Below, in pieces: positions 18,216 through 45,545 of a stretch of 64,000 bases of DNA. The DNA comes from Acidisarcina polymorpha (GTDB taxonomy: Bacteria; Acidobacteriota; Terriglobia; Terriglobales; Acidobacteriaceae). A model generated the notes under the pieces. The model was not told the DNA's origin, searched no databases, and was given only the letters and a program-made list of their open reading frames with translations. The stretch lies in contig NZ_CP030840.1 in assembly GCF_003330725.1 (NCBI RefSeq), positions 3,472,001-3,536,000 of the forward strand. The letters run 5' to 3'. Position 1 is the first letter of the stretch. Each line of letters opens with the position of its first letter. Position numbers and translations under genes: made by a program.

Positions 18216-19477
18216 CCCAGCAGAATGCAACCGCCATTGAAGAGCCGCAGATCGGGGAGCCGCAGATCGGCGGCGAATCTTCCTCCGTGGCCATAAGAAT
18301 TATTGGGGCCATCATCTTGCTAGTGATCCTTGTGGCAGTGGGCATCTTTCCTCGCATCGCACGACACCGGGAGGCGCTCGCGGCTGTGAACGAATCCGCG
18401 ACGATCCACCCCATCGTCACGCTTGCCCATGCGGTCAAAGGTGAGCCAAGTTCTGAGCTTCTCCTGCCGGGAAATATCCAGCCGCTCTATAGCGCCAATC
18501 TCTTTGCGCGTACCGACGGTTATATCGAACGGCGCAATGTCGACATCGGGAGCAAGGTGAAGACGGGGGAAGTACTCGCAATCATTTCCTCACCTGAGAT
18601 CGACCAGCAGCTCTTGCAGGCCCGCGCCACCGTCGTGCAGTCCGAAGCCTCTCTGCTTCAAGCTCGCGCCGCGCTCGAACAGGCGAAGGCCAACGCGGAG
18701 CTGGCGCGCCTCACCAAGGAGCGCGACCTTCCCCTCGGCAATGAGCACGCGATCTCGCAGCAAATTGTAGACTCTGCCGTCCAGGCCAACGACGCGCGGA
18801 TAGCGGATGTAGCTGCGGCCCAGGCCAATATCACCGCTGCCGAAGCCAATGTCACCGCGAACCAGGCCAACGTCGCCCGGCTCGTGCAGATGCAGAGCTT
18901 CGAACGTATTGTCGCTCCCTTCGACGGAGTCATCACTGCACGCAATGTCGAGCGCGGCGACCTCGTGAGTACAGGAAACGCAGCAAAACCGCTCTTCAGC
19001 ATGGCGCAGAGCGGGACCTTGCGTATCCAGATCGATGTACCGCAGTCAGAAGCGGTCAACATCCAGGACGGACAAAAAGCAGAGATCGATGTTAAGGAAC
19101 GTCTCGGCCGCGCGTACACGGGTACGGTGACACGGAGCGCCGGTTCGCTCGACAGTGCCGCTCGCACCATGTTGACGGAGGTCCAGATCGACAATCGGGA
19201 TGGCTCGCTCTTGCCTGGTATGTATGCACAGGTGAAGTTCACGCTGCCGCAACAGCGCGCGTCGCTCATCATCCCAACCAGTTCGCTGGTCGTCGACCGC
19301 GCAGGCATGCACGTCGTCACCGTGAACAAAGATCACACCGTTCATTTCAATCCGGTAGTCGTGGGCAAGGACATGGGGACAACGATCGAGATCCGCAGCG
19401 GCCTCAACGGTTCCGAGTCCATTGTGGCGAGTCCCAGTGACTTGCTGAGTGAGGGAGAACATGTCGAAGTCCGCTGA
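18212..19477 (+). CDS. RND efflux periplasmic adaptor (HlyD/AcrA-like membrane fusion protein)
   Basis: A 421-residue adaptor with an N-terminal membrane anchor (IIGAIILLVILVAVGIFPRI). Next comes a lipoyl half-motif (LFARTDGYIERRNVDIGSKVKTGEVLA), a long Ala/Gln-rich coiled-coil hairpin at about residues 130-225, the second lipoyl half (IVAPFDGVITARNVERGDLV), a beta-barrel and a membrane-proximal domain. It bridges the pump and the outer-membrane channel. The ATG overlaps the pump stop. Its 3' end overlaps the start of the channel gene. Confidence 0.9.
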   Translation: MTQQNATAIEEPQIGEPQIGGESSSVAIRIIGAIILLVILVAVGIFPRIARHREALAAVNESATIHPIVTLAHAVKGEPSSELLLPGNIQPLYSANLFARTDGYIERRNVDIGSKVKTGEVLAIISSPEIDQQLLQARATVVQSEASLLQARAALEQAKANAELARLTKERDLPLGNEHAISQQIVDSAVQANDARIADVAAAQANITAAEANVTANQANVARLVQMQSFERIVAPFDGVITARNVERGDLVSTGNAAKPLFSMAQSGTLRIQIDVPQSEAVNIQDGQKAEIDVKERLGRAYTGTVTRSAGSLDSAARTMLTEVQIDNRDGSLLPGMYAQVKFTLPQQRASLIIPTSSLVVDRAGMHVVTVNKDHTVHFNPVVVGKDMGTTIEIRSGLNGSESIVASPSDLLSEGEHVEVR

Positions 19478-20975
19478 TCATCTTTTCCACTCACGATCTT
19501 CCGACGAGATGGCTGATGACCACAAGGAAATCAGGGCATGGGTGCTCAGGATTTCGCTCGTCGCCATCGTCCTGCTGGTCGCCGGCTGCAATGTTGGCCC
19601 TGACTACAAGCGTCCCGTGGTCAACAACCCTCAAAGTTATCGCGGAGCCCTCGCTCCCGATATCGCAGCGACACCTGGTCGTACGAATGCGGCCCCAGCG
19701 GTGTCTTTGGCAGATCAGCAATGGTCGACGATTTTCAAAGACCCCGTACTGCAGAGGCTCGTGGAAGAGGCTCTGAAGAACAATCTGGATCTCCGCATCG
19801 CGGCACAACGGATCCTCGAAGCACAGGCGCAGGTCGGCATCACCCGGTCGCAACAATTGCCGAGTGTGAATGCCGGCGGCAGCTACTCCGCATTGCAGCT
19901 GCCATCGGGGCTTGCCTTCGCTAATACCAGCGGTGCACCCACAAGCTCGTTCATCAGCGGTGGTGGCTTTAGCGCGTCAGGCGCGTGGAACCTCGATTTC
20001 TGGGGGCTGTACCGCCGGCAAACGGAGGCCGCACGGGCTGATCTTCTCTCGACGGAGTGGGCCCAAAAGGCGACCCGATCTGCCCTAGTCGAGGGCGTCG
20101 CGGAAGCATATTTCCAGCTTCGGAGCCTTGATGCGCAGCTGGAGGTCACGAACCGCACTATCCAGGCACGCAAGGACTCTCTCAAGCTCGTCAGCGAACT
20201 CGAAAAATACGGAGCTGGGTCGCTTGAAGACACACGCCAGGCGGAGGAACTGCTCCACTCCGCGCAAGCTGTTCTCCCCCAGATCCGGCAGCAAATCGCC
20301 GTAGAAGAAAATACGATCAGTATCCTTCTCGGACACAATCCTGACGCCGTGGATCGTGGCCTGCCGGTGGATCAGCAGCCTCATCCCGAGGAGGTTCCAG
20401 CGGGTGTGCCCTCTCAGCTTTTGGAGAGGCGTCCAGACATTCAAGTAGCCGAGGCAAAGTTGATCGCCGCCAATGCTCGCATCGGGGTCGCGAAGGCGCA
20501 GTTCTTCCCGAACATATCCCTGAGCAGTCTTGGCGGCTCCGCCAGCAACCAACTGCAATCGGTCTTCTCCGGCAAGAACGCATATTGGTATGCTGCGGCA
20601 TCGTTATCTGAACCGATCTTCGACGGCGGCCGCATTCGGAGCAACTACCATCTCTCTCAGGCAGAAGAGCAGGAGATGCTTCTCGAATATCAGAAGACAA
20701 TACTCAACGCTCTGAGGGACGTCTCGAACTCACTGGTCGCCTATAAGGAGACACGGGAGCATCGCGAGGAAAAGGCCGCGCAGGTCACCGCCGCCGCTGA
20801 CGCAGTGCGGCTCGCCCGGATGCGCTACTCGGGCGGCAATACCAGCTATCTCGAGGTGCTCACCACGGATACCGATCTCTACGACGCTCAGCTGAACCTG
20901 GCACTCGCACAGGAGCAGGAAGCCGCTTCACTCGTCCAGCTCTACGCAGCTCTGGGTGGCGGGTGGCAGCAATAG
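19461..20975 (+). CDS. NodT-family outer-membrane efflux lipoprotein
   Basis: A 504-residue TolC/NodT-type channel. A lipobox (LLVAGC) follows a short membrane segment near residues 30-46, and then the family hallmark NVGPDYKRPVV. Two OEP repeats are visible, including LDLRIAAQRILEAQAQVG and the paired RRPDIQVAEAKLIAANARIG and YSGGNTSYLEVLTTDTDLY. GAGGGAG lies just before the ATG at 19461, inside the adaptor gene; a GTG at 19449 is the alternative. It completes the tripartite pump. Confidence 0.9.
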   Translation: MSKSADHLFHSRSSDEMADDHKEIRAWVLRISLVAIVLLVAGCNVGPDYKRPVVNNPQSYRGALAPDIAATPGRTNAAPAVSLADQQWSTIFKDPVLQRLVEEALKNNLDLRIAAQRILEAQAQVGITRSQQLPSVNAGGSYSALQLPSGLAFANTSGAPTSSFISGGGFSASGAWNLDFWGLYRRQTEAARADLLSTEWAQKATRSALVEGVAEAYFQLRSLDAQLEVTNRTIQARKDSLKLVSELEKYGAGSLEDTRQAEELLHSAQAVLPQIRQQIAVEENTISILLGHNPDAVDRGLPVDQQPHPEEVPAGVPSQLLERRPDIQVAEAKLIAANARIGVAKAQFFPNISLSSLGGSASNQLQSVFSGKNAYWYAAASLSEPIFDGGRIRSNYHLSQAEEQEMLLEYQKTILNALRDVSNSLVAYKETREHREEKAAQVTAAADAVRLARMRYSGGNTSYLEVLTTDTDLYDAQLNLALAQEQEAASLVQLYAALGGGWQQ

Positions 20976-31985: not shown

Positions 31986-32228
31986 TCATGCCAAACGTTG
32001 TATCTCCTCCTCGAGGCGTACGTGCAGCCGCTCCCCGAAACCCAATGGCAGCTCGAAGACTCGTTCGTCAGCGGTGAGGATCAGAATATTTCGAGTGGAA
32101 TCCAGAACTGCAGAGCAAATCTCACAGTGTTCCAGATGCAGCTGGACTTTGTTTCGTTCTGAAGCTTTCAGGTTATTGTCGAGGTAAGCAGAGATGTATT
32201 CCCAGACTTGCTTGCAGGCTATAACCAA
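31986..32228 (-). CDS. Soluble zf-HC2 anti-sigma factor
   Basis: An 80-residue zinc-finger anti-sigma protein with Cys in ACKQVWEYISAYLD and the zinc motif HLEHCEIC (H-x3-C-x2-C). It has no membrane helix. I prefer the TTG at 32228, which has CGGAGG eight bases upstream; a GTG at 32237 is also possible. In intact relatives the end of an ECF sigma gene overlaps this start. Here that sigma gene is wrecked (next entry), so the anti-sigma factor may be an orphan or may act on another ECF factor. Confidence 0.75.
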   Translation of the reverse strand: MVIACKQVWEYISAYLDNNLKASERNKVQLHLEHCEICSAVLDSTRNILILTADERVFELPLGFGERLHVRLEEEIQRLA

Positions 32229-32577
32229 GGGAACCACCTCCGCTTAGGATTGACTTGTTTCAAATGTGGTGCAAGTGCTTTTTGTAACATCATTCGGGCG
32301 CGGTGAAATCTGACTTTAACGGAGCTGCGGAGATGTCGATAGCCTCTGCCGATTCATTCACACTCAAGTTCTCTACGTCTGCCCAGGTTCCGGAGGCTTT
32401 GAGGAATGCCTCCTGCGCGGCATCTTCTGTGTCGGCCTTGTCCTGGAGCATGGAGAATACCATCGCGTAGACACTTCGCTCATAGGGTCGAGTTAGATCT
32501 TGAAAGAGGTGGGTCTCTCCACTCACGATGGAAGCTATGATCTGCATGTCGTCAACAACCTGGGCGGTATTAACCAT
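32219..32577 (-). pseudogene. ECF sigma factor, degraded: internal deletion plus frameshift
   Basis: The ATG at 32577 overlaps the DoxX stop (ATGA). Region 2 is recognisable (YERSVYAMVFSML, then DTEDAAQEAFLKA), but the sequence jumps directly to the region 4 helix (DVENLSVNESAEAIDIS). About 70-80 residues normally found between are missing. After PLKS a one-base loss shifts the frame, ending early at 32290. The neighbouring frame continues with FHRARMMLQKALAPHLKQVN and ends in RRWFPWL at 32219, the expected C-terminus. Both lesions should inactivate it. It sits between DoxX and its presumed anti-sigma factor. Confidence 0.85.
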
Positions 32578-33047
32578 CACTTGGCTGTACCTACGTTCCA
32601 ACGTTTTGCGAGCAACGCATCGAGAGAAAATATTCCTGCACCAAACACCAGCACCATGGCGGAAGCAAAGAGAAATGTGTATGGATCCGCAACGTAAAAC
32701 TTTCCGGGGTCGGAAAACACTGAGAGCAATGCCTCCTTGTCCGCGGTCCAATATGCAACCAGCATGTTTACGGTGAGTACGAGTCCGATTAGTCTCGAAC
32801 CCAATCCTAAAATGAGTAAAATGCCACCGACAAACTCGAGGCCTGATACGAAGTGCGCCGTAAGTCCCGGGGCCGGCAGGTTGAGGCTCGTGAAAAAGTC
32901 GGTCACTTTGTCGAGGTGGTGCAACTTCCCCCATCCCGACTGTGCAAACTGCCATCCCCAATAGAGCCGTACAGCCAGGAGAAACGGGGATTGAAGCTTC
33001 AAGATCCAGCCCGAAAATCGCAAATACAAATCGAGCAAAGCCTTCAT
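32577..33047 (-). CDS. DoxX-family membrane protein
   Basis: A 156-residue protein with about four membrane helices and the DoxX pattern: LLAVRLYWGWQFAQSGWGKL near the N-terminus, LEFVGGILLILGLGSRLIGL and LFASAMVLVFGAGIFSLDAL. The ATG at 33047 has AGAGGAAG upstream and is preferred to a TTG at 33062. DoxX genes are frequent companions of bufferin/MNIO clusters, where they are thought to help with copper or redox stress at the membrane (family knowledge). It diverges from the precursor gene across about 500 bases and overlaps the degraded sigma gene by four bases. Confidence 0.85.
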   Translation of the reverse strand: MKALLDLYLRFSGWILKLQSPFLLAVRLYWGWQFAQSGWGKLHHLDKVTDFFTSLNLPAPGLTAHFVSGLEFVGGILLILGLGSRLIGLVLTVNMLVAYWTADKEALLSVFSDPGKFYVADPYTFLFASAMVLVFGAGIFSLDALLAKRWNVGTAK

Positions 33048-33118
33048 AACTTCCTCTTTCAAATTCGGGCGTTATCGCGTCGAGCGATCTTGAGCTGCCC
33101 AACATATACACGGAAGGT

Positions 33119-33146
33119 GACATCTTCTCGACTTCCTACCGTTACG
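33119..33146 (-). promoter_or_regulatory. ECF-type promoter candidate of the DoxX operon
   Basis: Read on the minus strand, CGTAAC (33146-33141) is followed after 18 bases by TGTC (33122-33119), about 70 bases before the DoxX ATG. It resembles the motif at 30175 but with a spacer one base longer. Confidence 0.35.
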
Positions 33147-33147
33147 C

Positions 33148-33330
33148 TCAGTTAGAGTTCTTGCTTGATGATTTGTTACAGAGGATCTTGATTGTCTTGC
33201 CGTCGGCATGAACATTTAGCGTTTCCAACCCGTTTAGAAAGCTCGTCAACTCTGCGCGGGTCGCCTCTAATGAGCGTCTGCGACCGCACTCACGAGCCTG
33301 TGGATCGCAATCGCAGCATCGACATGAACT
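33148..33330 (-). pseudogene. Possible gene tail of unknown family
   Basis: On the minus strand a frame ends at 33148 with LTSFLNGLETLNVHADGKTI and a Lys/Ser-rich tail. The upstream part (IHRLVSAVADAH) is in another frame, and I found no start codon with a ribosome site. The composition looks protein-like, but the evidence is weak. Confidence 0.25.
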
Positions 33331-33372
33331 GCGCCTAGGAGACAGTTATAGGTATTTCCCGTCTCTCAGAGT

Positions 33373-33385
33373 GGCCGTAACCTTT
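33373..33385 (+). promoter_or_regulatory. Shared GGCCGTAACCTTT motif upstream of the RiPP precursor
   Basis: The 13 bases are identical to 30175-30187. They lie 165 bases before the precursor ATG. A GTC-type -10 box is less clear here (CTCC at the expected distance), so the assignment as an ECF -35 element rests on the exact repeat. Confidence 0.4.
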
Positions 33386-33549
33386 ATCCCTTCGAGCACT
33401 CCAATGTGCAGCCCACAGGAAAGTACGAGGGTTACGAATGATTGGCTCCCTCGCTCCTAATTGCTTTCCGGTCGCTGCGATTTCAGTCGCAGCCAACCGT
33501 CAATGCCCACGCCGGTAGGCGCGGCTCAACCAATGAAAGGATTAACCTC

Positions 33550-33834
33550 ATGAATCACTCAGTGAAATCGCTCGCTTTGGCCGCTGCGTTCGCAGGCTTG
33601 ATTGGCGGCACCACCGTTCGCTTGAACGCTCAGACGGCCGAGTCTAACGGCAGTTCGGTTCAGTCCACGCACGCCGGCGTTCTGCTGATCCAGGATAAGC
33701 CGCTGCCCAAGCATGCGTGCAAAGGACAGAACGACTGTAAGGGGCAGGGCGGCGGCAAGAATGCCGGCAAGAACGATTGCAAGGGCAAGGGCGGCTGCGC
33801 CACCGACGGTTCCAAGCCGCCAAAGGCCGCTTAA
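33550..33834 (+). CDS. bufA2: Bufferin-type (BufA2-like) RiPP precursor
   Basis: A 94-residue secreted precursor. Residues 1-27 form a signal peptide (SLALAAAFAGLIGG, cleavage around LNA-Q). The core carries four cysteines, Cys57, Cys63, Cys77 and Cys83, spaced C-x5-C-x13-C-x5-C, in the repeated motif CKGxNxCKGxGG. This Lys/Gly/Cys pattern matches the second class of bufferin precursors, whose cysteines are oxidised by an MNIO enzyme to copper-binding heterocycles (established for Caulobacter bufferins). AAGGA lies 8-12 bases before the ATG at 33550; an upstream in-frame start at 33442 lacks a ribosome site and would bury the signal peptide. A hairpin separates it from the modifying enzyme gene. 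Confidence 0.85.
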   Translation: MNHSVKSLALAAAFAGLIGGTTVRLNAQTAESNGSSVQSTHAGVLLIQDKPLPKHACKGQNDCKGQGGGKNAGKNDCKGKGGCATDGSKPPKAA

Positions 33835-33847
33835 CATGTCGCGTTGT

Positions 33848-33878
33848 CTGGAGGCTTGGATTCCTATCAAGCCTCCAG
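33848..33878 (+). terminator. Hairpin between precursor and MNIO genes (partial terminator)
   Basis: CTGGAGGCTTG (33848-33858) pairs perfectly with CAAGCCTCCAG (33868-33878) around a nine-base loop, starting 13 bases after the precursor stop. TTTATCCTTCTTT follows. It could partly stop transcription so that more precursor than enzyme is made, or protect the 3' end of the precursor message. Confidence 0.7.
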
Positions 33879-33911
33879 GTTTATCCTTCTTTAAGTGTTC
33901 GGAGGGGACAC

Positions 33912-34796
33912 ATGCCAGCCAACCGCTTCAATGGGTTCACGGACTACGGGGTCGGGATCGGTCTACGCGTTCCGCACTACGAGCACATTTTTTCACACAA
34001 GCCCGTCGTCGACTGGTTTGAGATTATCTCCGAGAACTATATGGTCGACGGTGGCAGGGCGCTGCAGGTGCTCGACGACATCCTCGATCAATACAGGGTC
34101 GTGCAGCACGGGGTTTCAATGTATTTCGGCTGTGCGCAACCGTTGAACCGGGAGCATCTGAAACGTCTCAAAGAATTGACACGACGGACAAAGACGCCGT
34201 GGCTCTCTGACCATCTTTGCTGGGGAAGCGTGGATGGGCGTTATACGCACGACCTCTTACCGATCCCCTACACCTTCGAAGCTGTGAAGATAACCGCGGC
34301 AAGGATCAGGCAGGTCCAGGATTTCCTTGAGATTCCAATCGCTGTCGAAAATGTAAGTAGTTATGCGGAGTTCAACGAATCCCAGATGACCGAGTGGGAA
34401 TTTCTCAACGAGGTAGTCGAGGCAGCCGATTGCGGAATTCTCCTCGATGTCAACAACATCTACGTCTCTTCGCAAAATCATACTTTCAACCCCTTCGATT
34501 ACGTCAACAGCGTTCCCGTCGAGCGCGTTGCGCAAATCCATATCGCCGGGCATTCCAAGTTTGAAAAGTACATCCTCGACACTCATGATCACCCGGTGCT
34601 GGATCCAGTCTGGAGCCTGTACCAACGCACGATCGAGCGTGTGGGGCATACCGCTACTCTGCTCGAGTGGGACGACAATATTCCTTCCTTTGATGAGGTA
34701 CATGGGGAAGCGTTGAAAGCAAACAGGTATCTGGAACCAACCGAGACCGCTACGCAAGCCGAAGCGCAGATAGTCTATGAGGTGGTCCACTCATGA
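33912..34796 (+). CDS. bufB: MNIO (DUF692) multinuclear non-haem iron oxidase, bufferin-modifying
   Basis: A 294-residue TIM-barrel enzyme of the DUF692/MbnB-like family. Expected metal-ligand motifs are present: ENY (41-43), HGVS (66-69), SDH (99-101), VENVSSY (145-151), LDVNN (178-182), HIAGH (210-214), DTHDHPV (223-229) and LEWDD (251-255). Such enzymes use two or three iron ions and O2 to convert precursor Cys residues to oxazolone/thioamide or thiooxazole groups. The ATG at 33912 has GGAGGGG eight bases upstream. Its stop overlaps the ATG of the DUF2063 partner. The target is almost surely the 33550 precursor. Confidence 0.92.
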   Translation: MPANRFNGFTDYGVGIGLRVPHYEHIFSHKPVVDWFEIISENYMVDGGRALQVLDDILDQYRVVQHGVSMYFGCAQPLNREHLKRLKELTRRTKTPWLSDHLCWGSVDGRYTHDLLPIPYTFEAVKITAARIRQVQDFLEIPIAVENVSSYAEFNESQMTEWEFLNEVVEAADCGILLDVNNIYVSSQNHTFNPFDYVNSVPVERVAQIHIAGHSKFEKYILDTHDHPVLDPVWSLYQRTIERVGHTATLLEWDDNIPSFDEVHGEALKANRYLEPTETATQAEAQIVYEVVHS

Positions 34797-35674
34797 CACT
34801 GCTTGAGTTGCAACGCCGGATGGCGGAAGACGTTATGCGGCCTCTGAGTCCTGATTTTCAAATGCAGACGACGACTGAGGATGGACGTTCGATCGCGGCG
34901 ATCGCCGAAGGTTACATCAAGCCGAACGAGCGCTTGTCCTCGTTCGACCGGCTTGAGATATACAACCGCCAGTACTGGTTTCGGGTCATCACCGCGGTCG
35001 CAGAAGACTTCCCGGCTTTGAATGCGGTTCTTGGAAGCGACGCTTTCGATGTGTTGGTGCTTGCGTACCTTCGCGACAACCCTTCGTCCTCTTTTACGCT
35101 CCGCGACCTCGGCTCCAGGCTTCCGGAATGGCTTCAGGATCACGCCGAGTTCACCTCCGGCAACCACGATCTGGCAGTGGATATTGCACGGTTGGAGTGG
35201 GCCTACGTGGAGGCGTTCGATCGAGCGGCCATCCCCCCGGTAAATGGTGCGGATTTCGCGGGCTTCGACGGCGAGACAAGGCTTAGCCTCCAGCCGCATT
35301 TACAACTGCTCAATCTGAAATATCCCGTGGACGAGCTCGTTCTCGCCGTACATAGGGAGAACGCTCTCAGCGACATCATGAGCAACGCAATCTCCAAGCG
35401 GCGCCAAACATCGGAGGCTGACCTGCCGGAATTGCCCCGTCAGGACATCTATCTTGCAGTCCACCGTTACGACAACTCCGTCTACTATAGGCGCATTGAT
35501 CGCGAAGCCTTTCTCTTGCTGTCCTCTCTTCAGTCCGGCAACTCTCTCGGTTCTGCTCTCGAATCAGCCTTTCAGGATGGCACGTATACCGCAGAGGATC
35601 AGACCGCTAAAATTCAGGAGTATTTTGCGCACGCCGCCGAGCTGGGATGGTTCTGTATAGCGACTCCGAAGTAA
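34793..35674 (+). CDS. bufC: DUF2063 MNIO partner protein
   Basis: A 293-residue protein with the N-terminal DUF2063 domain: LEIYNRQYWFRVITAVAEDF, then FPALNAVLG and SSSFTLRDLGSRLPEWL. The C-terminal domain (residues 190-290) is beta-rich and includes YLAVHRYDNSVYYRRID-type strands. In MNIO systems this partner binds the precursor and presents it to the enzyme (established for MbnC- and TglI-like partners as a class). The ATG overlaps the MNIO stop by four bases, so the two are co-translated. It ends the operon. Confidence 0.9.
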   Translation: MTLLELQRRMAEDVMRPLSPDFQMQTTTEDGRSIAAIAEGYIKPNERLSSFDRLEIYNRQYWFRVITAVAEDFPALNAVLGSDAFDVLVLAYLRDNPSSSFTLRDLGSRLPEWLQDHAEFTSGNHDLAVDIARLEWAYVEAFDRAAIPPVNGADFAGFDGETRLSLQPHLQLLNLKYPVDELVLAVHRENALSDIMSNAISKRRQTSEADLPELPRQDIYLAVHRYDNSVYYRRIDREAFLLLSSLQSGNSLGSALESAFQDGTYTAEDQTAKIQEYFAHAAELGWFCIATPK

Positions 35675-36079
35675 CAGGATCACTTCTCGGCCGGCTTACG
35701 CATTGATGCCGTGATCGCCTTATTGCACCGGCAGATCGAGTCCTGCAATGGAAAGGTAGGTGGGTGGAAGTCCCCTGAGGATAACGTAGGCTAATTTTTG
35801 CCCATTTCGATTTGAGTTTTGGCGATGGAGGTTGGTACAAGCAGGAGGAGCGAGGCCTCTGGGAGGCTTGTGTGATGGAGCCGACAACGCTCAGCATGGC
35901 TCCAGACGTAAAAGATTTCTCATACCGCGGCTCTGATCCTGCACGCAGTTGGTTCCGAATATGGGTACGGTTTTAGCACCATGGAGATCACCGGGCCAAT
36001 CCATTCTGCAAGAGATACGCTTGGCCAAACGGAGACTTGTATAAGATGGCTGAAACCAGCTTCTTTGCGAAGGTCTTCC
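35675..36079. other. Intergenic gap, 405 bases
   Basis: It lies between the bufferin operon and the first BNR gene. A G-rich stretch (35750-35890) is present but no gene, perfect hairpin or repeat was recognised. Confidence 0.4.
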
Positions 36080-39000
36080 ATGATGGGTCGCCGCCGTGCC
36101 GCCGTTTTGCTTTCGCTTTGTCTCGCTTCGTTGTGGGTTGGCGCATTGAGCCTGTTTGCCCAAACCGTTCCGGATATGCGCTGGCGCATGATCGGGCCGT
36201 TCCGGGGCGGCCGCACACGCGCTGCTACCGGCGTTCCCGGCGAGCCGAACGTCTTCTATGTCGGGCAGGTGGATGGCGGCGTCTGGAAGTCAACCGACTA
36301 CGGCCGCACCTGGCAGCCCATCTTCGACGCACAGCCCTCGCAGTCGATCGGCGCCATCGCGGTCGCGCCCTCCAACTCCAACATCGTCTATGTCGGCAGC
36401 GGCGAAGGGTTGCAGCGGCCTGACCTCTCAGTCGGCGACGGCATCTACCGTTCGGCGGATGCCGGCATGACCTGGCAGCACCTCGGGCTTCATGAAGGTC
36501 AGCAGATTCCCGCGCTAGCCATCGATCCGCGCGATCCCAATCGTGTCTACGCTGCTGTACTCGGGCATCCGTATGGACCCAACGAGGAACGTGGCATCTT
36601 CCGTTCCACCGATGGCGGGGCCACCTGGAAGAAGATTCTCTACAAGGACGCAAATACGGGCGGTGACGACATCGTGCTCGACCCGGCGAACCCAAACATC
36701 CTCTACGCGTCCTTGTGGGAGTCGCGGCTTGGCCCATGGGAAGACGGCAATCGGTATGAAGGCACCCACGGCGGCTTGTTCAAATCGACTGACGGCGGCG
36801 ACACCTGGAAGCCGCTGACTAAGGGGCTTCCGGATAACCTGGTGCAGGCTCATATCGCGGTCGCGCCCAGCGACGAGAAGCGCTTGTACGCGACGATCGC
36901 AACGGTTAAGCAAGGCGGGTATGCCTCGGGCGCTGGCCTTGGAGTCTATCGCTCAGACGATGCCGGCGAAAACTGGTACAAGGTGACCGACGACCCCCGG
37001 CCGGCGATGAAGATCGGCGGTGGCGACCTGCCTGAGCCAGCTGTCGACCCGAAGAACGCCGACGTCGTCTACAGCGCCAGCATCGTCACCGTACGCTCAA
37101 CCGATGGGGGCCACACCTGGATGAGCCTGCGCGGCGCACCCGGCGGCGACGATTACCAGAACCTGTGGATCAACCCGCTGCATCCGGAAATCGTCCTGCT
37201 CGTCAGCGATCAGGGCGCACTCGTCAGCGTCAACCGCGGCGAGAGCTGGAGCTCCTGGTACAACCAGCCGACGGCCCAGCTTTATCATGTCGCGGTGACC
37301 AACACCTTTCCCTACCTTGTCTGTGCGGGCCAACAGGAGAGCGGCTCAGTCTGCACCTCCAGCCGCAGCAACGACGGCACCATCACCTTCCGTGACTGGC
37401 ACCCGGCCGGGGTCATTGAGTACGGCTACGTCGCACCCGACCCGCTGCATCCGGAGATCGTCTACGGGGCTGGGCGAACCGAGGTCTCAAAGTACAACAT
37501 GATCACCGGCCAAGTGCAGAATGTGACGCCTTTGCCGACGCACGACCCGGAAATTCGCGCCGACCGCACCGAGCCCATCCTGTTCTCGCCCGTCGATCAG
37601 CATCTGCTCTTCAGCGCGACTAGTGTGCTCTTCGAGACAAAAGACTACGGGAAGACGTGGCGGAAGATCAGCCCGGATCTGAGCCGTGAACACTCTGGCC
37701 AGCCGGCTTCTTTGCCCGCGTTGCCGGAGAAAGATCAAGCCAAGCGCCGCGGCGCCATCTATTCGCTGGCGCCATCGTTCAAGTCCGTCGACGTGCTTTG
37801 GGCAGGAACCGACGATGGGCTTGTCTGGTCGACGCATGACCATGGCGCACACTGGAAGAACATCACGCCGCCTTCGCTGGCCGCGTGGAGCAAGGTTACG
37901 CAGATCTCGGCATCGCACTTCGACGACGCGACAGCGTATGTGTCGGTCAGCCGTATGCGCGTCGATGACCTGCAACCATACCTCTTCCGCACACACGACG
38001 GCGGCGCCACCTGGCAATCCATCGCCGCCGGACTGCCCGATGGCTCACCCGTCGATACGGTGCGAGAGGATCCAATCTGCAAAGGTCTGCTCTTCACCGG
38101 AACCGAGACATCGGTCTGGTATTCGATCGACGATGGAGACCACTGGCAGCCGCTGCAACTCAATCTGCCGCACACATCGATGCGCGACTTGGGCGTGAAC
38201 GGAAACGACCTGATCGTCGCAACACATGGCCGCTCGTTCTGGATCCTCGACGATATCTCCCCGCTGCGGCAGCTTGCCGGCTTCAACCCCGATGCGGTCA
38301 CGCTCTTCAAGCCCGGTGCGGCGTACCGCGTGCGGCGCAGCACCAATACAGACACACCTTTACCGATCGATGAGCCACAGGGAGAGAATCCTCCAGATGG
38401 CGCCGTTATCGACTATTCGCTGCCCACTTCCATTCGCGGAACAGTCACCCTCGAGATTCTTGATAGAGACGGCCAACTGGTGCGTAAATACGCCAGTACC
38501 GACGCGCCCTACGCGACGCCCGAGCAACTGGCGAAGCAGCTCATCCCGCTCTACTGGCTGAAGATGCCCGAGGCGCTCCCTGCCTCAGCCGGCATGCATC
38601 GCTGGTTGTGGGATATGCGTGCCACCACCCCCACGGCGACCAGCTATGAGTATCCCATCTCTGCCGTGCCGCACCGCACTCCGCGCGAACCGCAGGGAGT
38701 GCTGGCGCTGCCCGGCACGTACACCGTTCGTCTCACCGCCGGCGGCAAGGTACTGACGTCCCCCTTCGTTCTCAAGATGGATCCGCGCGTGAAGGCCTCG
38801 CCTGCGGACCTCACTGCCGTGCACACAACCGAGTCGAAGCTTGCAGCGTTGACCTCTTCGAGCGCTGAGGCTGCACTCGAAGCGCATTCGTTGCGCGAGC
38901 AGATTGCGAAGCTCACGAAAGATGCCCCCGCCCAACTCAAGGAGTCGCTTAAGCAATCAGATCAACAGCTCGAAACGCTGCTCGACGGTAAGCCAATGAA

Positions 39001-39277
39001 GCCAGCCAGTGAGGAAGTTCCTGGTCTCGACGATATTTCGAGTGAGGACGCTGAACTCTACAACCAGGTGGGACAGGTGGACGCCGCGCCGACAGCCGCA
39101 CAGCAGAAGGCCGCGGCGCATGCAGGCGAAGAGACCGAAGCGGCCTTGCGTCAGTGGAACAAGTGGAAGCAAGCTTCGCTTACGAAGCTGAACGGCCAAC
39201 TAACGGCGGCTCATCTCTCGCAGCTCGACCTGCAACAGCGGCCGGAGACCATGCCCCAAAGCGGTGACGAAGACTGA
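36080..39277 (+). CDS. Secreted BNR/VPS10-like beta-propeller protein, copy 1
   Basis: A 1065-residue exported protein. A signal peptide (VLLSLCLASLWVGALSLFAQ) follows the ATG at 36080; further upstream in-frame starts are not needed. The body is two beta-propellers built from Asp-box repeats of the type STDGGATWK (for example ADAGMTWQ, SDDAGENWY, STDGGHTWM and THDGGATWQ), as in sialidase/sortilin VPS10 domains. The last 300 residues add an Ig-like beta domain (YTVRLTAGGKVL) and a helical, possibly coiled-coil tail. No catalytic sialidase residues are evident. It is followed after 29 bases by a paralogue and then a TonB-receptor-like gene, suggesting one operon for a surface task. Confidence 0.8.
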   Translation: MMGRRRAAVLLSLCLASLWVGALSLFAQTVPDMRWRMIGPFRGGRTRAATGVPGEPNVFYVGQVDGGVWKSTDYGRTWQPIFDAQPSQSIGAIAVAPSNSNIVYVGSGEGLQRPDLSVGDGIYRSADAGMTWQHLGLHEGQQIPALAIDPRDPNRVYAAVLGHPYGPNEERGIFRSTDGGATWKKILYKDANTGGDDIVLDPANPNILYASLWESRLGPWEDGNRYEGTHGGLFKSTDGGDTWKPLTKGLPDNLVQAHIAVAPSDEKRLYATIATVKQGGYASGAGLGVYRSDDAGENWYKVTDDPRPAMKIGGGDLPEPAVDPKNADVVYSASIVTVRSTDGGHTWMSLRGAPGGDDYQNLWINPLHPEIVLLVSDQGALVSVNRGESWSSWYNQPTAQLYHVAVTNTFPYLVCAGQQESGSVCTSSRSNDGTITFRDWHPAGVIEYGYVAPDPLHPEIVYGAGRTEVSKYNMITGQVQNVTPLPTHDPEIRADRTEPILFSPVDQHLLFSATSVLFETKDYGKTWRKISPDLSREHSGQPASLPALPEKDQAKRRGAIYSLAPSFKSVDVLWAGTDDGLVWSTHDHGAHWKNITPPSLAAWSKVTQISASHFDDATAYVSVSRMRVDDLQPYLFRTHDGGATWQSIAAGLPDGSPVDTVREDPICKGLLFTGTETSVWYSIDDGDHWQPLQLNLPHTSMRDLGVNGNDLIVATHGRSFWILDDISPLRQLAGFNPDAVTLFKPGAAYRVRRSTNTDTPLPIDEPQGENPPDGAVIDYSLPTSIRGTVTLEILDRDGQLVRKYASTDAPYATPEQLAKQLIPLYWLKMPEALPASAGMHRWLWDMRATTPTATSYEYPISAVPHRTPREPQGVLALPGTYTVRLTAGGKVLTSPFVLKMDPRVKASPADLTAVHTTESKLAALTSSSAEAALEAHSLREQIAKLTKDAPAQLKESLKQSDQQLETLLDGKPMKPASEEVPGLDDISSEDAELYNQVGQVDAAPTAAQQKAAAHAGEETEAALRQWNKWKQASLTKLNGQLTAAHLSQLDLQQRPETMPQSGDED

Positions 39278-39306
39278 GCAGACGACAATTTTTCGCGGAG
39301 AAGACC

Positions 39307-42300
39307 ATGGCACGCAGGAACCTTACATCCTCAAGGCTGCTAAAGACGTTGCTAGCCGGCGCCTCCGTTATCGCGGTCATGCCGGCCCTTGGGCAGACGG
39401 TCTCGCCCCAGATGTACAGCGACATGGACTGGCGCCTGATCGGCCCGTTCCGCGGGGGCCGGGCCGTCGCCGTGTCCGGCATTCCGGGCGATGGCGCCAC
39501 CTTCTATTTCGGCGCAGTCGATGGCGGCATTTGGAAGACAACCAACGCAGGCACCACCTGGAAGCCGATCTTCGACGGGCAGCCCGTTGCCTCGATCGGG
39601 GCGCTCGCGATGGCGCCGTCGAACCCGCAGGTCCTCTACGCCGGTACAGGCGAGACGGACATCCGCTCGGACCTCGCCTCTGGGGAGGGCGTTTACAAGT
39701 CGATCGACGGCGGCAAAACCTGGAAGTTCATCGGACTCAAAGAGACAAGACAGATCGCGAAGATCGTCGTTGATCCCAACGACCCCGACATCGTCTACGT
39801 CGGCGCGCTTGGCCATGTCTACGGCCCGAATCCCGAACGCGGCGTGTACAAATCGACCGATGGGGGTGGGACGTGGCAGCACATTCTGGACAAAGGTCCG
39901 GAGCTTGGCGTGGCAGACCTGGCCATTGCTGCGGGTAAACCGAATGAGCTGTTCGCCTCGCTCTGGAACGCGCATCGGCCGCCCTGGAGCACCTACGCCC
40001 CACTGGCGGGCGATGGCAGCGGACTCTATCGCTCCATCGACGCCGGACAGACCTGGCAGACTTGCACCGGCAAGGGCTTGCCGGACGGCAAGTGGGGCCG
40101 CGTCGGCGTGGCGGTCAGCTCCGATGGCCAGCGCGTCTATGCTCTCATCGAAGCCGCGAAAGCCGGGCTCTACGTCAGCTCCGATGGCGGCGCAAGCTGG
40201 ACGCTTGCCAGCTCCGACGCTCGCCTGACCAGCCGGGCCTGGTACTTCAATCGCATCACGATCGATCCGAATGACCCCAACACCGTCTACGTTCCTAACG
40301 TCGCCTTGATGGGCTCGATCGACGGCGGCAAAACCTTCACCGTGGTTCGCGGGGCTCCCGGCGGGGACGACTACCACGAGCTTTGGGTCGACCCAAAGGA
40401 CAGCTCGCGGCTCCTGCTCGCCACCGACCAGGGCACCTCCATCAGTGTCGACAAAGGGAACTCGTGGACTACCTGGTACAACCAGCCCACCGCGCAGATG
40501 TACCACGTCATCACCGACGACAAGTTCCCCTACACCGTCTACGGCGCGCAGCAGGATAGCGGCGGTGCAGGAGTCCTCAGCCGTACTGACCACGGTCAGA
40601 TCACACCGCGCGACTGGTTCCCAGCGAGCGGCAGCGAAAGCGGCTACTTCGCCGTCGATCCGAAGAATTCAGACATTATCTACGTCAGCGGGAGCTATGG
40701 CACCGTGCAGCGTTGGGACAAGCTCGTCTCGCTCTCGCAGGACGTGTCGCCATGGCCTGTGCCCATCTTCGGCACAGAGATCGACCAGCGCAAATATCGG
40801 GACCCGTGGACTCCTCCGCTGGTCTTCTCGCCCGCCGATAAGACCAGCCTCTACCTGGGCGCGCAGTACGTCCTGCGCACTACCGATGGCGGGCTTCACT
40901 GGCAGCAGATCAGCCCTGATCTCACTGGCGGCAAGACGACTGTGCGGACTTCGGCGATCGCCGAGCCGGGCAATCCTTCTGCCGGAAACTCCGTCGGATC
41001 ACCGCCCGCGCCCACGCTCGAAAATGCTATCGCTCTCGGCTACGGCACGCTTGCGACGGTTGCGCCCTCCTATCTCGACAAGAACTTAATCTGGGCCGGC
41101 AGCGACACCGGCGTCATCTCGGTCACACGGGATGGCGGCGCATCCTGGAAAGACGTGACTCCCGCGGCCACGAAGACCCCGTCCATGCTGTGGGCGCGCA
41201 TCTCGCTCATCGAGCCCTCGCACTTCAATCCTGCCGTGGCCTACGCGGCAGTCAACCGCTACCGAGTCGACGACCGCACCCCCTACCTCTTCAAGACCGC
41301 CGATTATGGCAAAACCTGGCAGCCCATCACAGCCGGACTCAGCGACCCGGCGTTCGTCATCGCTGTGCGTGAAGATCCGAAGCAGAAGGGCCTGCTCTAC
41401 GCCGGAACCGAGTTCGGCATCTACGTCTCGTTCGACGACGGTGGCCGTTGGCTGCCGCTGCAGATGAACCTGCCCGTCACCTCCATACGCGACATGGTCA
41501 TTCACGGCGACGACCTCGTCATCGCGACCCACGGCCGCTCCTTCTGGATTCTCGACGACATCACCCCGCTCCGTCAGGCCGCAGCTCACGCGGCAAGCGC
41601 CACACCCTTCCTGTACAAGCCCGAAGTTACCTTCCGCATCGACAACGACGCCTTTCCGGGCACGCCGCTGCCGCCTGAGGAGCCCACGGCTGAGAACCCG
41701 CCCGCCGGCGCTATCCTCGACTACTACCTACCCGCCGAGACTAAGTCGCTCGACCTCAACATCTACGACCAGTCGCACAAGCTCGTCCGCCACGTCTCCT
41801 CGGCGATCCCGGCGCAGCCCTCGCACATGGATCTCCCGATCGCCGATCGCTGGTTTCCCGTCCCGCAGCGTCTCGAAACCACGCCTGGACATCACCGTTT
41901 CATCTGGAATCTCGCCTGGGGCACCTCAGGCGTTCAGGAAAGCGACGAGCCAGACGATGGAGAAGGCAGCATTCCACGTGGGCCCAAAGTCGCGCCAGGC
42001 ATCTACACAGTGCAACTGAGCGTCGATGGGAAACCGTTGAAGCCTCAACAACTCAACATCACGATGGACCCGCGCATCCAGGCTACGACCGCCGAACTCC
42101 AGCAAAACTTGACCACAGCCTACAAGATTTTCTCGACATCACTGCAAACCCGCCGGGCTCTCGCCGAGATCGACTCAGTGAAGACGCAACTTGGAAAGAA
42201 CTCCTTCATCAATCCGCAACTCGCCCAGATGCAAAAGGCATTGCTCGCCTCCATAGACCAAATCACCGAGGGCGCCGGCGGGAGCCTCGGACTCGAGCAG

Positions 42301-42540
42301 GCGAACTCCGAGATCACCTCCGCGCTCAACGCCGCCGAAAGCTCCGACCGTCCCATCCCATCGCAGGTCATGCAGGTGTACTCCGAAGCCAACGCCGCCT
42401 CTGCGCTTCGGCTCAAGCAATGGGCTGCCCTCAAGCAAGGCGCTCTGGTGCAGTTCAACCAGCAGCTGACTCAGCAGAAGCTCACACCAATCGCTATCTC
42501 TGCAATCGAACACGAAGTCTATATCCTGATGACGCAGTAA
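39307..42540 (+). CDS. Secreted BNR/VPS10-like beta-propeller protein, copy 2
   Basis: A 1077-residue paralogue of the preceding gene with the same layout: a signal peptide (LLAGASVIAVMPALGQ), the opening MDWRLIGPFRGGRAVAVSG, Asp-box repeats (TTNAGTTWK, SIDGGKTWK, STDGGGTWQ), the shared block RGAPGGDDYHELWVDP and WYNQPTAQMYHV, an Ig-like domain and a helical tail. GGAG lies before the ATG. The conserved segments shared by both copies, such as ATHGRSFWILDDI, show tandem duplication followed by divergence. Family members are annotated as glycosyl hydrolases without proof of activity. Confidence 0.8.
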   Translation: MARRNLTSSRLLKTLLAGASVIAVMPALGQTVSPQMYSDMDWRLIGPFRGGRAVAVSGIPGDGATFYFGAVDGGIWKTTNAGTTWKPIFDGQPVASIGALAMAPSNPQVLYAGTGETDIRSDLASGEGVYKSIDGGKTWKFIGLKETRQIAKIVVDPNDPDIVYVGALGHVYGPNPERGVYKSTDGGGTWQHILDKGPELGVADLAIAAGKPNELFASLWNAHRPPWSTYAPLAGDGSGLYRSIDAGQTWQTCTGKGLPDGKWGRVGVAVSSDGQRVYALIEAAKAGLYVSSDGGASWTLASSDARLTSRAWYFNRITIDPNDPNTVYVPNVALMGSIDGGKTFTVVRGAPGGDDYHELWVDPKDSSRLLLATDQGTSISVDKGNSWTTWYNQPTAQMYHVITDDKFPYTVYGAQQDSGGAGVLSRTDHGQITPRDWFPASGSESGYFAVDPKNSDIIYVSGSYGTVQRWDKLVSLSQDVSPWPVPIFGTEIDQRKYRDPWTPPLVFSPADKTSLYLGAQYVLRTTDGGLHWQQISPDLTGGKTTVRTSAIAEPGNPSAGNSVGSPPAPTLENAIALGYGTLATVAPSYLDKNLIWAGSDTGVISVTRDGGASWKDVTPAATKTPSMLWARISLIEPSHFNPAVAYAAVNRYRVDDRTPYLFKTADYGKTWQPITAGLSDPAFVIAVREDPKQKGLLYAGTEFGIYVSFDDGGRWLPLQMNLPVTSIRDMVIHGDDLVIATHGRSFWILDDITPLRQAAAHAASATPFLYKPEVTFRIDNDAFPGTPLPPEEPTAENPPAGAILDYYLPAETKSLDLNIYDQSHKLVRHVSSAIPAQPSHMDLPIADRWFPVPQRLETTPGHHRFIWNLAWGTSGVQESDEPDDGEGSIPRGPKVAPGIYTVQLSVDGKPLKPQQLNITMDPRIQATTAELQQNLTTAYKIFSTSLQTRRALAEIDSVKTQLGKNSFINPQLAQMQKALLASIDQITEGAGGSLGLEQANSEITSALNAAESSDRPIPSQVMQVYSEANAASALRLKQWAALKQGALVQFNQQLTQQKLTPIAISAIEHEVYILMTQ

Positions 42541-42557
42541 CCGCCTTTCGGAGATAC

Positions 42558-45545
42558 ATGCAATCACGTCCCCTCCTCGTTGCGCTCGTGCTCAGCGCGG
42601 CGCTCCATATCCATGCCCAGAGCGTCACCGGGGCCATTCGGGGCATGATCGAAGACCCCACCTCCGCCCGCGTCGCGAACGCCACCATTGACCTCCGGCG
42701 CGCCGACTCCTCGCTCGTGCGCCACGTCACGGCCGAGGCCAACGGCGAGTTCCGCGTCCAGGGCCTGCAGCCCGGCGCCTGGCAGCTCAGCATCAACGCA
42801 CCGGGCTTCGCAACCGCATCGTCGGACGTCAACGTCCTTGTTAGCAGCACGCAGGTCGTCACGGTCACCATGCGCCTCGTCTCCGTGCTTCAAAGCGCCG
42901 GCGTCAGCGCAACTGCATCGTCGATCACCACGCAGCGCATCGACGCCGACAGCAACGTCCACCAGAGCATCATTACCAGCGCCGATCTCCAGGCTCTCCC
43001 GCTGCCCGCGCGCAGCTTCGCCAACATCGCCTACCTCGCTCCCGGCACCGAGCCGGTCGAACCCTCCGACCCCACCAAAGCTCGCATTACGGCTGTCTCC
43101 ACCGGCGGCAGCTCCGGCCTCAACAACGAGCTCTCCGTTGATGGCGCCGACGACTCTGACGACTACATCGGAGGCTTCCTGCAGAACATCTCCCCCGACG
43201 CCATCGCCGGGTTCGCCATACGCACCGCGCAGGAGGACGCGGACAGCGGCAACACTACCGCCGGCTCCGTGGTCATCACCACCAAGAGCGGCAACAACCA
43301 GTTCCACGGGGGCGCCGCCTTCTACGAACGCGCCGCTGATCTTAACGCTCGCTATCCAATCGAGAATCCCGCACCCAATCCCAAGCAGCCATTCTCGCGG
43401 CAAAACTACGTTGGCACCCTCGGCGGCCCCGTCGTTCGCGACAAGCTCTGGTTCTTCTCCGCCTTCGAACACGTCCACGAGAACGCCAGCATCGCCTACA
43501 GCCCGGGCAGCACCACTCAGTTCGACGCTCTTGCTACCCTTGCCGCAGACGGCCTCATTCCCGGGGTGCCCTTTATCGCCGTCCCCACCTTCGTTCCCAT
43601 TCCTTTTCGCGACTACTTCGGCTCTGGCCGCTTCGACTACACGCAATCCCAGCGTTCGAGCTGGTATCTCCGCGGCACCGTCGACAGATACACCACGCAC
43701 AACAATCTCGTGCAGCAAGGCACCCTTCCCAGCACTGGCCTGCGCTCGCGCAACAATTACCTCAGCATGGTTGTCGCCAACGAGTTCGTCTTTTCGTCCA
43801 ACCTGCTTGGCAGCCTTGTTGTTGCGGGCGTCGGCCTGCGCCTCACCCAGGCGCGCAATTCCGATCTCGGCTTCGCCCTCGCGTTCCCGTTCAGTTCCAC
43901 CTCGCAAACCATCTCAGGCTTTGAAACCTATGGCGACAACCAGTTCGCTACGCCTATCACCTATTTCCCTTCCATCCGCAATCAGGAGAAGTATCAACTC
44001 CGCTACGACCTCAGCTACACCCGCGCGCGGCACGCGCTCAAGTTTGGCGTCAACTTCATCCACGAGCCCGTACTCGGCGGCGCCTTCCCCAACAAACCCG
44101 AAACCCTCTACACCTTCCCCGAAAACCCCACCTACTATCTTGCGAATCCGGCGCAGTTCGCCGTCGATTACGCCGCGGGCGCTTCAACCTCCGGAGTCGA
44201 TGGGGGCAGCTTCTCGCAAGACGTTCAACGCCTCGCCCTCTACGCGCAGGACTCCTGGCACGTGCGCAACCTCACCTTCAACTACGGGCTGCACTACTCC
44301 ACCACCTTCGGCCTCTTCGAGGCCTCCGGCCGCCCGCAGACGGAGAACCCCGGCTACCTCACCCTGCAGTCGCTTGGCATACCGCTCGTTCGGGGCGCGC
44401 CGCACGACGACCATGCGCAAATCGCTCCGCGCTTTGGCTTCACCTACGCTCCGCGCGGAAGCCAATCCACCGTGATCCGAGCTGGTTTCGGCCTCTACTT
44501 CGACGACCTCGCTCAAAACGGCTGGGCCACCGCATTTCAGGCTGTCAACACGCTACCGGCTCCCTGCGCCGATCCCATCCAGAACCAGGGCTCACCCGGC
44601 TGCATACCCGGCGACTCCGCCGGTGGCGTTGCCAATTTGATTGACCCCCGCTACCGCACGCCCTATGCCGTTCACGTCTCCGCTGGCGTTCAGCACAACC
44701 TCAACGCCAACTGGTCCATGACGAGCGACTTCATCCACGAGCAGGGAAACCACGGCTACCGCGCGTACAACTATACCGGCGGCACCAGCCTCTTCACTCC
44801 GCAGCTTGCGCCCGACGACCCCAACCAGGCCACCTACGTCCCCGACGTCAACGTCTACCACTCCGACAACCGTTCCAGCTACAACGGCCTTCTGCTCCAC
44901 TTACAGGGAGCCATCGGCCATCGCGCCAACTTCATCGCGAACTACAGCTTCTCCAAGGCACAAACCTGGGGCTGTGTTCTCGGCGAGCTCTTCGACTACG
45001 TCAACGGTGTATGTAACCCGCTCAACCCCTTCGGGCCCGGGGACTACGGGCCATCCGGTGAAGATGTCCGGCACCGCTTCGTCCTCGCAGGTACCCTCAA
45101 AGCTCCCGCCGGCTTCGAGATCAGCGGCCTCTCTCAGGCCGAAAGCGCGCGGCCGTTCACCATCACCACCCCCGACAATACCCAACGCATTACCGTCAAC
45201 AATCAGCCCACCTCACTGGACCAGTTTCGCGCCACGCCCTACATCCAAACCGACCTGCGCGTCAGCCGCCCCATCGCGTTCAGCCGTTGGCCGGAGAGTG
45301 CCAAGGTGATGCCCTTCATCGAAATGTTCAACCTCTTCAACCGCAACAATCCCGGCGCAAACTACGTAACCAACGCCGCCTCCATCCCCAACTGCACCGT
45401 CATCGCGCCCAATTCTGCCAACTGCACCGCCACCAACCTCAAGCAACTCGGCATACCCGCCGGCGCCCTCGGTGACTTCTTTGGCCCGGGCACAACGGTT
45501 GGCATTCCCTTCGCCGCGCAACTCGGCGTGCGACTGACCTTCTAG
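42558..45545 (+). CDS. TonB-dependent receptor-like outer-membrane protein with carboxypeptidase-regulatory-like N-terminus
   Basis: A 995-residue outer-membrane protein: signal peptide (LLVALVLSAALHIHAQ), a beta-sandwich domain typical of acidobacterial Oar/SusC-like receptors (VTGAIRGMIEDPTSARVANA), a plug region (LSVDGADDSDDYIGGFLQNI and TTKSGNNQFHGGAAFY) and a long beta-barrel ending in GVRLTF with a terminal Phe. The ATG at 42558 has CGGAG upstream and lies 17 bases after the second BNR gene. It may import or display a ligand that the BNR proteins bind. Long frames in other phases here are GC-driven shadows. Confidence 0.85.
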   Translation: MQSRPLLVALVLSAALHIHAQSVTGAIRGMIEDPTSARVANATIDLRRADSSLVRHVTAEANGEFRVQGLQPGAWQLSINAPGFATASSDVNVLVSSTQVVTVTMRLVSVLQSAGVSATASSITTQRIDADSNVHQSIITSADLQALPLPARSFANIAYLAPGTEPVEPSDPTKARITAVSTGGSSGLNNELSVDGADDSDDYIGGFLQNISPDAIAGFAIRTAQEDADSGNTTAGSVVITTKSGNNQFHGGAAFYERAADLNARYPIENPAPNPKQPFSRQNYVGTLGGPVVRDKLWFFSAFEHVHENASIAYSPGSTTQFDALATLAADGLIPGVPFIAVPTFVPIPFRDYFGSGRFDYTQSQRSSWYLRGTVDRYTTHNNLVQQGTLPSTGLRSRNNYLSMVVANEFVFSSNLLGSLVVAGVGLRLTQARNSDLGFALAFPFSSTSQTISGFETYGDNQFATPITYFPSIRNQEKYQLRYDLSYTRARHALKFGVNFIHEPVLGGAFPNKPETLYTFPENPTYYLANPAQFAVDYAAGASTSGVDGGSFSQDVQRLALYAQDSWHVRNLTFNYGLHYSTTFGLFEASGRPQTENPGYLTLQSLGIPLVRGAPHDDHAQIAPRFGFTYAPRGSQSTVIRAGFGLYFDDLAQNGWATAFQAVNTLPAPCADPIQNQGSPGCIPGDSAGGVANLIDPRYRTPYAVHVSAGVQHNLNANWSMTSDFIHEQGNHGYRAYNYTGGTSLFTPQLAPDDPNQATYVPDVNVYHSDNRSSYNGLLLHLQGAIGHRANFIANYSFSKAQTWGCVLGELFDYVNGVCNPLNPFGPGDYGPSGEDVRHRFVLAGTLKAPAGFEISGLSQAESARPFTITTPDNTQRITVNNQPTSLDQFRATPYIQTDLRVSRPIAFSRWPESAKVMPFIEMFNLFNRNNPGANYVTNAASIPNCTVIAPNSANCTATNLKQLGIPAGALGDFFGPGTTVGIPFAAQLGVRLTF

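Follow-up and report, generated by a model that had tools for sequence, protein, structure and literature searches.

A locus in a 64,000-nucleotide stretch of the Acidisarcina polymorpha genome (contig NZ_CP030840.1, positions 3,472,001 to 3,536,000; hereafter the window, whose numbering is used for coordinates) very probably encodes the biosynthesis of a bufferin, or captophorin, of the Buf2 lineage. An earlier note made from the letters alone had read it as a bufferin-type cluster for a ribosomally synthesized and modified peptide, with a secreted precursor (bufA), a multinuclear nonheme iron-dependent oxidative enzyme (MNIO; bufB) and a DUF2063 partner (bufC). This reading is supported by the MNIO score above the BufB cut-off, the gene order, the putative Sec signal, the partner of PME-type 1 and the DoxX protein, and it stands because the MNIO passes that cut-off and the partner model matches TglI and NGO1945. 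Judging from sequence comparison, the nearest kin appear to be the Buf2 systems rather than the four-cysteine Buf1 of Caulobacter, despite the cysteine count, and the precursor appears to be a trimmed Buf2. By analogy, we infer that copper is the ligand and that the four cysteines are modified.

The modification enzymes and DoxX

The MNIO matched the Pfam family PF05114 (MbnB_TglH_ChrH) with 361 bits and the NCBIfam BufB model (NF050167) with 351.1 bits, above the curated equivalog cut-off of 310. The HvfB model gave 263.8 bits, below its cut-off of 360, and the NCBIfam models for ApyH, ChrH and MbnB each stayed under their own cut-offs; placement in another MNIO class, which the earlier note had named as contrary evidence, was thus not found with these models. 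In phmmer searches the enzyme was matched to the structures of 3BWW (1e-52), TglH and MbnB, the motifs H, EN, D-N, H, D-H and E falling in register, and H66, H101, E146, N147, D179, N182, H210, D223, H225 and E252 were invariant in 142 aligned MNIOs, so the ligand motifs expected in the earlier note are all present. The closest MNIO was that of Edaphobacter lichenicola (88% identity). A genome search found one MNIO only; in some other acidobacterial genomes there are two loci for an MNIO or a precursor (JABDEK010000038.1, locus L028, with JABDEK010000029.1, locus L045; genomes G118 and G182), and the two precursors of G182 have four (L088) and six (L102) cysteines.

The partner matched PF09836 (DUF2063) with 58 bits (cut-off 27). 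Its AlphaFold2 model (pLDDT 86.5) was most similar by Foldseek to TglI (8hci, 8hi7) and NGO1945 (NgoC, 3DEE) at E values of about 4e-6, followed by weaker matches to the RiPP recognition element (RRE) of a lasso peptide system, TbiB1. Only the fold search was informative, as phmmer and hmmsearch against PDB sequences gave nothing meaningful. From this model the partner is assigned a DUF2063 plus RRE architecture, which the survey of Antoine et al. 2025 (PMC12452194) designates PME-type 1. DoxX matched PF07681 (75 bits) and, below the cut-off of 80, the NCBIfam model HvfX (NF050144, 64 bits).

The precursor

The precursor begins with MNHSVKSLALAAAFAGLIGGTTVRLNAQ and finishes with KHACKGQNDCKGQGGGKNAGKNDCKGKGGCATDGSKPPKAA. 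A putative Sec signal spans about residues 1 to 28 and ends in RLNA/Q; by eye it consists of a lysine, the hydrophobic stretch LALAAAFAGLIGG and the LNA/Q site, and it is kept in relatives. A linker joins it to the core, KHACKGQNDCKGQGGGKNAGKNDCKGKGGCATDGS, which holds the four cysteines. When the precursor was compared with the BufA families as the earlier note had proposed, its sole family match was BufA2 (NCBIfam NF050166), at 18.2 bits against a cut-off of 60; a six-cysteine relative (L011) scored 38.6 bits and a Pseudomonas plasmid Buf2 97.6 bits. Since the match lies below the cut-off, the precursor is to be regarded as a divergent Buf2 relative and not as a curated member. No Pfam match was obtained, including PF10048 (DUF2282, Buf1), and the sequence contains no EGKCG repeats.

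Of 200 genomes from the host family, 71 contained precursor homologues, nearly always 20 to 160 bp upstream of an MNIO, and the ratio of nonsynonymous to synonymous differences (pN/pS) against relatives was 0.21 to 0.36. These three observations argue that the precursor is not a chance open reading frame (ORF). Its AlphaFold2 model was uninformative (pLDDT 50) and silent on modification.

Loss of two cysteines from a six-cysteine core

Relatives were sampled as 80 loci from a genome-contig search plus the 71 genomes of the host family in which a precursor was present, and a CKG-rich cysteine precursor was located just upstream of nearly every MNIO. Among the 126 countable loci of the tree set (Acidobacteriota and Verrucomicrobiota), the precursor had six cysteines in 92, four in 26, five in 6, and seven and three in one each. 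The six-cysteine core, CKGKNDCKGQGGCKSSDNGCKGKNSCKGKGGC, has a spacing of 5-5-6-5-5 (cysteines C1 to C6), and the Pseudomonas plasmid Buf2 has 5-5-6-5 followed by a distant sixth cysteine. Where the six-cysteine relatives read GGC-KSSDNG-C-K, the window and its kin read GGG-KNA or GGG-KHP, and at the DNA level a shortening by five codons was seen to remove both C3 and C4. The four-cysteine core accordingly derives from the usual six-cysteine core by deletion.

The window falls in a 22-row four-cysteine clade of the MNIO tree (SH-aLRT 94) whose sister loci (L103, L104) have six cysteines. Two further four-cysteine pairs lie elsewhere in the tree, one of which (L015 and L031) has a different linker, C2-x10-C5. 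On this tree three changes of the four-cysteine label are needed, but a single four-cysteine clade was not rejected by the approximately unbiased (AU) test (p 0.40), and a separate loss event is argued only by the different linker of L015 and L031. Loss by deletion is therefore claimed without a fixed number of losses. As to compensating changes in the MNIOs of the four-cysteine clade, only two diagnostic columns (Q76 and A171) were found, with no clear signal.

In Buf1 the modifications sit on the two central cysteines, and a disulfide joins the outer ones (PMC12452194). In an alignment with Buf1, C3 coincided with the first modified Buf1 cysteine in both MAFFT settings tried, and it was deduced that the four cysteines of the window precursor are not the four of Buf1. 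The homology of C4 depends on the setting, with either the acidobacterial C4 or C5 pairing with Buf2 C4 and Buf1 C3.

Other versions of the core were also observed. A three-cysteine version, KHACKGKNTCKGKGGC (L063:3712-3939), and five-cysteine versions lacking C4 (L026, L051, L068, L138 and L142) stand beside closely related MNIOs. The signals of verrucomicrobial precursors (L042, L048 and L074) end in a lipobox-like LxGC or similar, such as ITGCS, so these precursors may be membrane anchored. In other acidobacterial families (G246, G403, G557, G260 and others) precursors are longer and tandemly duplicated, with profile matches in at least two adjacent stretches of the same frame.

Locus layout

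The genome measures 7.6 Mb, of which 7.1 Mb form the main contig, where the window lies. The ORF and sequence check bore out the anatomy given in the earlier note, namely precursor, MNIO, DUF2063 protein, divergent DoxX and their order, and the 94-residue precursor has exactly the four cysteines claimed, spaced C-x5-C-x13-C-x5-C. The bufA-bufB-bufC order is kept in more than 120 loci. The extent given there, 33047-35674, covers bufABC but neither the bulk of doxX nor the regulatory genes at 31986-32619 (Table 1).

Table 1. Genes and putative promoters of the bufferin locus (window coordinates)
Feature	Position	Strand	Description and basis
bufA-like precursor	33550..33834	+	94 aa; ORF and sequence check
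MNIO (DUF692) maturase, BufB type	33912..34796	+	294 aa; PF05114, NF050167
DUF2063 + RRE partner (PME-type 1)	34793..35674	+	293 aa; PF09836, predicted fold; start overlaps MNIO stop
DoxX-family membrane protein, HvfX-like	32577..33047	-	156 aa; PF07681; divergent from bufA
ECF sigma-factor pseudogene	32222..32619	-	tblastn with intact relatives, whole-genome search, DNA reading
zf-HC2 (ZAS-type, HLEHCEIC) anti-sigma factor, apparently intact	31986..32237	-	about 80 aa; PF13490, 44 bits
Putative ECF promoter of bufABC	33376..33405	+	CGTAACC-N17-TCCAAT
Putative ECF promoter of doxX-(sigma)-anti-sigma	33151..33180	-	TGTAACA-N17-TCTAAC; 103 nt upstream of doxX

Directly downstream of the bufferin operon (35981-45545), a pair of sortilin/VPS10-like BNR proteins, each about 1,090 residues long, follow one another, and after them comes a large beta-barrel protein of the outer membrane.

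An ECF sigma module and its putative promoters

A pair consisting of an extracytoplasmic function (ECF) sigma factor (at least 50% identical) and a soluble zf-HC2 anti-sigma factor (at least 45% identical) was found in 40 of 92 long loci, often in the doxX operon and either downstream of bufABC or divergent from it. The anti-sigma factor of the window is 65 to 74% identical to those of its four-cysteine relatives, with a pN/pS of 0.22 to 0.26.

Of 129 loci, 38 had the motif TGTAACC-N17-TCNAAY upstream of bufA (a mean of 1.9 and a maximum of 5 in 100 shuffles). Its presence goes with that of the sigma/anti-sigma pair (p 3e-4 at an odds ratio of 8, not corrected for relatedness). The motif had been framed on the bufA upstream regions and was then tested in the 250 nt upstream of doxX, where it was found at 18 of the 30 doxX genes that have a transcription unit of their own, versus 0 of the 80 that lie inside the bufABC operon (mean after shuffling 0.01). 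Both sites are present in the window, with the bufA promoter off consensus at the first -35 base and the last -10 base. In Caulobacter, sigma-F drives two Buf1 operons via GTAACC-N16-CGAA (PMC3511200); the -35 hexamer GTAACC is identical to that found here and the -10 is similar (CNAA), whereas the spacer here is 2 nt longer. Regulation of the sigma-F type, in the sense of a pair with a shared promoter motif, was thus found in the relatives and at the promoters, the sigma gene of the window itself being a pseudogene.

Over the whole genome, YGTAACC-N17-TCNAAY gave 3 matches versus 5 for the reversed pattern, and therefore the motif alone defines no wider regulon. An exact match, TGTAACC-N17-TCGAAC, occurs just once in the window, antisense inside the DUF2063 gene (34887-34916, minus strand), and is probably due to chance. 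A GC-rich, hairpin-like stretch that seemed conserved 40 to 60 nt ahead of the bufA start codon was considered as an RNA element of the 5' untranslated region, but it was rejected as RNAalifold gave no consensus pair, single-sequence folding energies were near those of mononucleotide shuffles (z -1.9 to +1.1) and there was no Rfam match.

The broken sigma gene

The intact sigma factors of relatives matched the window by tblastn in three minus-strand pieces between 32619 and 32222. An N-terminal piece extends to EAFLKA (32619-32395), a region-4 fragment reads DVENLSVNESAEAIDISAAPLK (32379-32314), and a frameshift leads to KVRFHRARMMLQKALAPHLKQVNPKRRWFPWL (32326-32222). About 90 residues are gone after EAFLKA, and the frame changes before KVRFHRARMMLQK. 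A whole-genome search returned the same gene as two separate fragments together with an intact paralogue, 63% identical (C1:1155175), whose own anti-sigma factor is 62% identical to that of the window. Since the cognate sigma factor is broken, induction would have to come from another ECF sigma factor, or else be weak or constitutive; the paralogous pair is a candidate for having taken over. The five intact genes (structural genes and anti-sigma gene) gave pN/pS values of 0.10 to 0.38 against relatives, from which purifying selection over most of the divergence is deduced, the figure being an average since the split from those relatives.

Proposed mechanism and alternative explanations

PME1-dependent MNIOs remove four hydrogens from cysteine to give copper-binding 5-thiooxazoles that absorb near 305 nm (PMC13097082, PMC12538549), and bufferins use Sec for export and increase copper tolerance (PMC12452194). 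On this model, envelope or metal stress would free the ECF sigma factor from its zinc-binding anti-sigma factor, and the freed sigma factor would fire the two TGTAACC-N17-TCNAAY promoters. The precursor would be held in the cytoplasm, by its signal or leader region, on the partner's RRE domain while the MNIO takes four hydrogens from all four core cysteines, or from a part of them, to form 5-thiooxazoles; as C3 and C4 are deleted, any modification would fall on C1, C2, C5 and C6. After Sec export and signal peptidase cleavage, the periplasmic peptide would bind Cu(I) or Cu(II) and buffer copper in excess, and DoxX would assist at the membrane. In this genome the paralogous sigma factor may have taken over from the broken one. 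It is also possible, though on balance doubtful, that a minimal Buf2 metallophore evolved in an Acidobacteriaceae lineage, in which C3 and C4 (by spacing, the Buf1 thiooxazole pair) were cut out, copper is bound via rings at C1, C2, C5 and C6 with altered stoichiometry or affinity, and the zf-HC2/ECF switch passed to the paralogous sigma factor in this genome.

Several points weigh against the Buf2 reading. The precursor lies well below the BufA2 cut-off (18 versus 60 bits), and the deep placement of the MNIO relative to proteobacterial Buf1 and Buf2 enzymes is unsettled because of long branches. No copper gene was found within a few kb of the locus. Its own sigma gene is broken, which bears on expression, and a conserved captophorin locus of Microbulbifer can stay silent under copper (PMC12538549). 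In its favor is counted the plasmid Buf2 of Pseudomonas mandelii, which adjoins a heavy-metal P-type ATPase gene and a MerR gene.

The lack of an adjacent copper gene in the window would also fit a peptide of the same class, with the same logic of export and buffering, whose ligand or trigger is not mainly copper and may be another soft metal or oxidative or sulphur stress. The Caulobacter sigma-F and Buf1 regulon was found through a heavy-metal (dichromate) response (PMC3511200), and MerC fusions hint at mercury (PMC12452194). We consider this unlikely, as copper is bound by those products of PME1-dependent MNIOs that have been studied biochemically (PMC13097082, PMC12538549), and a Pseudomonas Buf2 stands beside a metal P-type ATPase. 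A locus that is decaying or silent here, its regulator having died first and its biosynthetic genes being little or not expressed, is judged marginally less probable still: the deletion and frameshift in the sigma gene and the two deviating promoter bases are what such decay would leave, while the open structural and anti-sigma genes, with their averaged pN/pS, the retention of both promoters and the intact paralogous pair speak for a working locus.

A further reading, in which the precursor stays unmodified as a cysteine-rich protein of the metallothionein-like or disulfide-bonded kind and the MNIO has another substrate, is very improbable. No positive evidence for it was found, the precursor model (pLDDT 50) included, and it is opposed by the position of bufA directly before the MNIO in nearly all relatives and by the single MNIO of the genome. 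Least probable of all, and scarcely credible, is membership in the HvfA/oxazolin (EGKCG) class, to which the HvfB score of 264 bits and the nearest NCBIfam names of DoxX and the partner (HvfX and HvfC) might point; HvfB is below its cut-off where BufB is above its own, the EGKCG repeats are missing and BufA2 is the sole precursor match.

As to metal context, the P. mandelii Buf2 adjoins a TolC gene in addition to the ATPase and MerR genes, and that of P. luteola is near a PtrA-type gene and a transposase; the plasmid Buf2 operons of Pseudomonas (L162, NZ_CP005961.1; L163, NZ_CP044084.1) lie in a mobile metal-resistance context. Within the window, a resistance-nodulation-division (RND) efflux operon (14610-20975) encodes a permease, an adaptor and an outer-membrane channel with a divergent ArsR-like regulator. 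It was considered as a copper neighborhood and rejected, since the pump scores as general efflux and below the CusA/CzcA cut-off.

Comparison with known systems

The peptide class is already known, and the window precursor may be among the hundreds of unclassified precursors of 1 to 18 cysteines that the survey mentions (PMC12452194). Descriptions of a four-cysteine Buf2 lineage, of a Buf2-associated zf-HC2/ECF module with its promoter, and of the dead sigma gene were not found in the accessible portions of the literature. The acidobacterial cores of three, four, five and six cysteines on close MNIOs amount to a natural deletion series for mapping the modified or copper-binding cysteines of Buf2. 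ECF control, known from Buf1, now reaches Buf2 as well, together with a defined promoter, and the regulation can be tested in cultivable Granulicella and Edaphobacter. The current BufA2 model places these acidobacterial precursors under its cut-off.

The locus resembles Buf2 (BufA2, NF050166; Buf_6/12Cys in PMC12452194) in the putative Sec signal, the CKGxN and CKGxG units, the bufA-bufB-bufC order, the PME-type 1 partner and DoxX, and the first five cysteines of its six-cysteine relatives are spaced 5-5-6-5 as in Pseudomonas. It differs in having four cysteines rather than six or twelve, with C3 and C4 deleted, and in scoring under the BufA2 cut-off; in these acidobacteria the sixth cysteine follows C5 after 5 residues rather than about 12, and many relatives carry the ECF sigma/anti-sigma pair, whereas the survey reports Buf2 clusters without sigma factors (PMC12452194). 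With the Buf1 (DUF2282) and sigma-F/NrsF system of Caulobacter (PMC3511200) it shares ECF control with promoters at both the bufferin and the sigma operons, the DoxX and DUF2063 proteins and a precursor with four cysteines, but there is no DUF2282 match, the anti-sigma factor is a soluble zf-HC2 protein and not the membrane protein NrsF, and the retained cysteines, at least with regard to C3, are not the modified pair of Buf1. The EGKCG captophorins oxazolin, fontiphorin and bulbicupramide (PMC13097082, PMC12538549) likewise combine an MNIO and PME1 pair with a cysteine-rich substrate, and their 5-thiooxazoles and copper binding are predicted here; their EGKCG repeats are absent, and the MNIO scores as BufB and not HvfB. 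Finally, the DUF692/DUF2063 precursors of Antarctic soil Gammaproteobacteria (PMC8692599) show the same arrangement of a short cysteine-rich ORF followed by DUF692 and DUF2063 genes, but they are proteobacterial, have six cysteines and are described with no sigma module.

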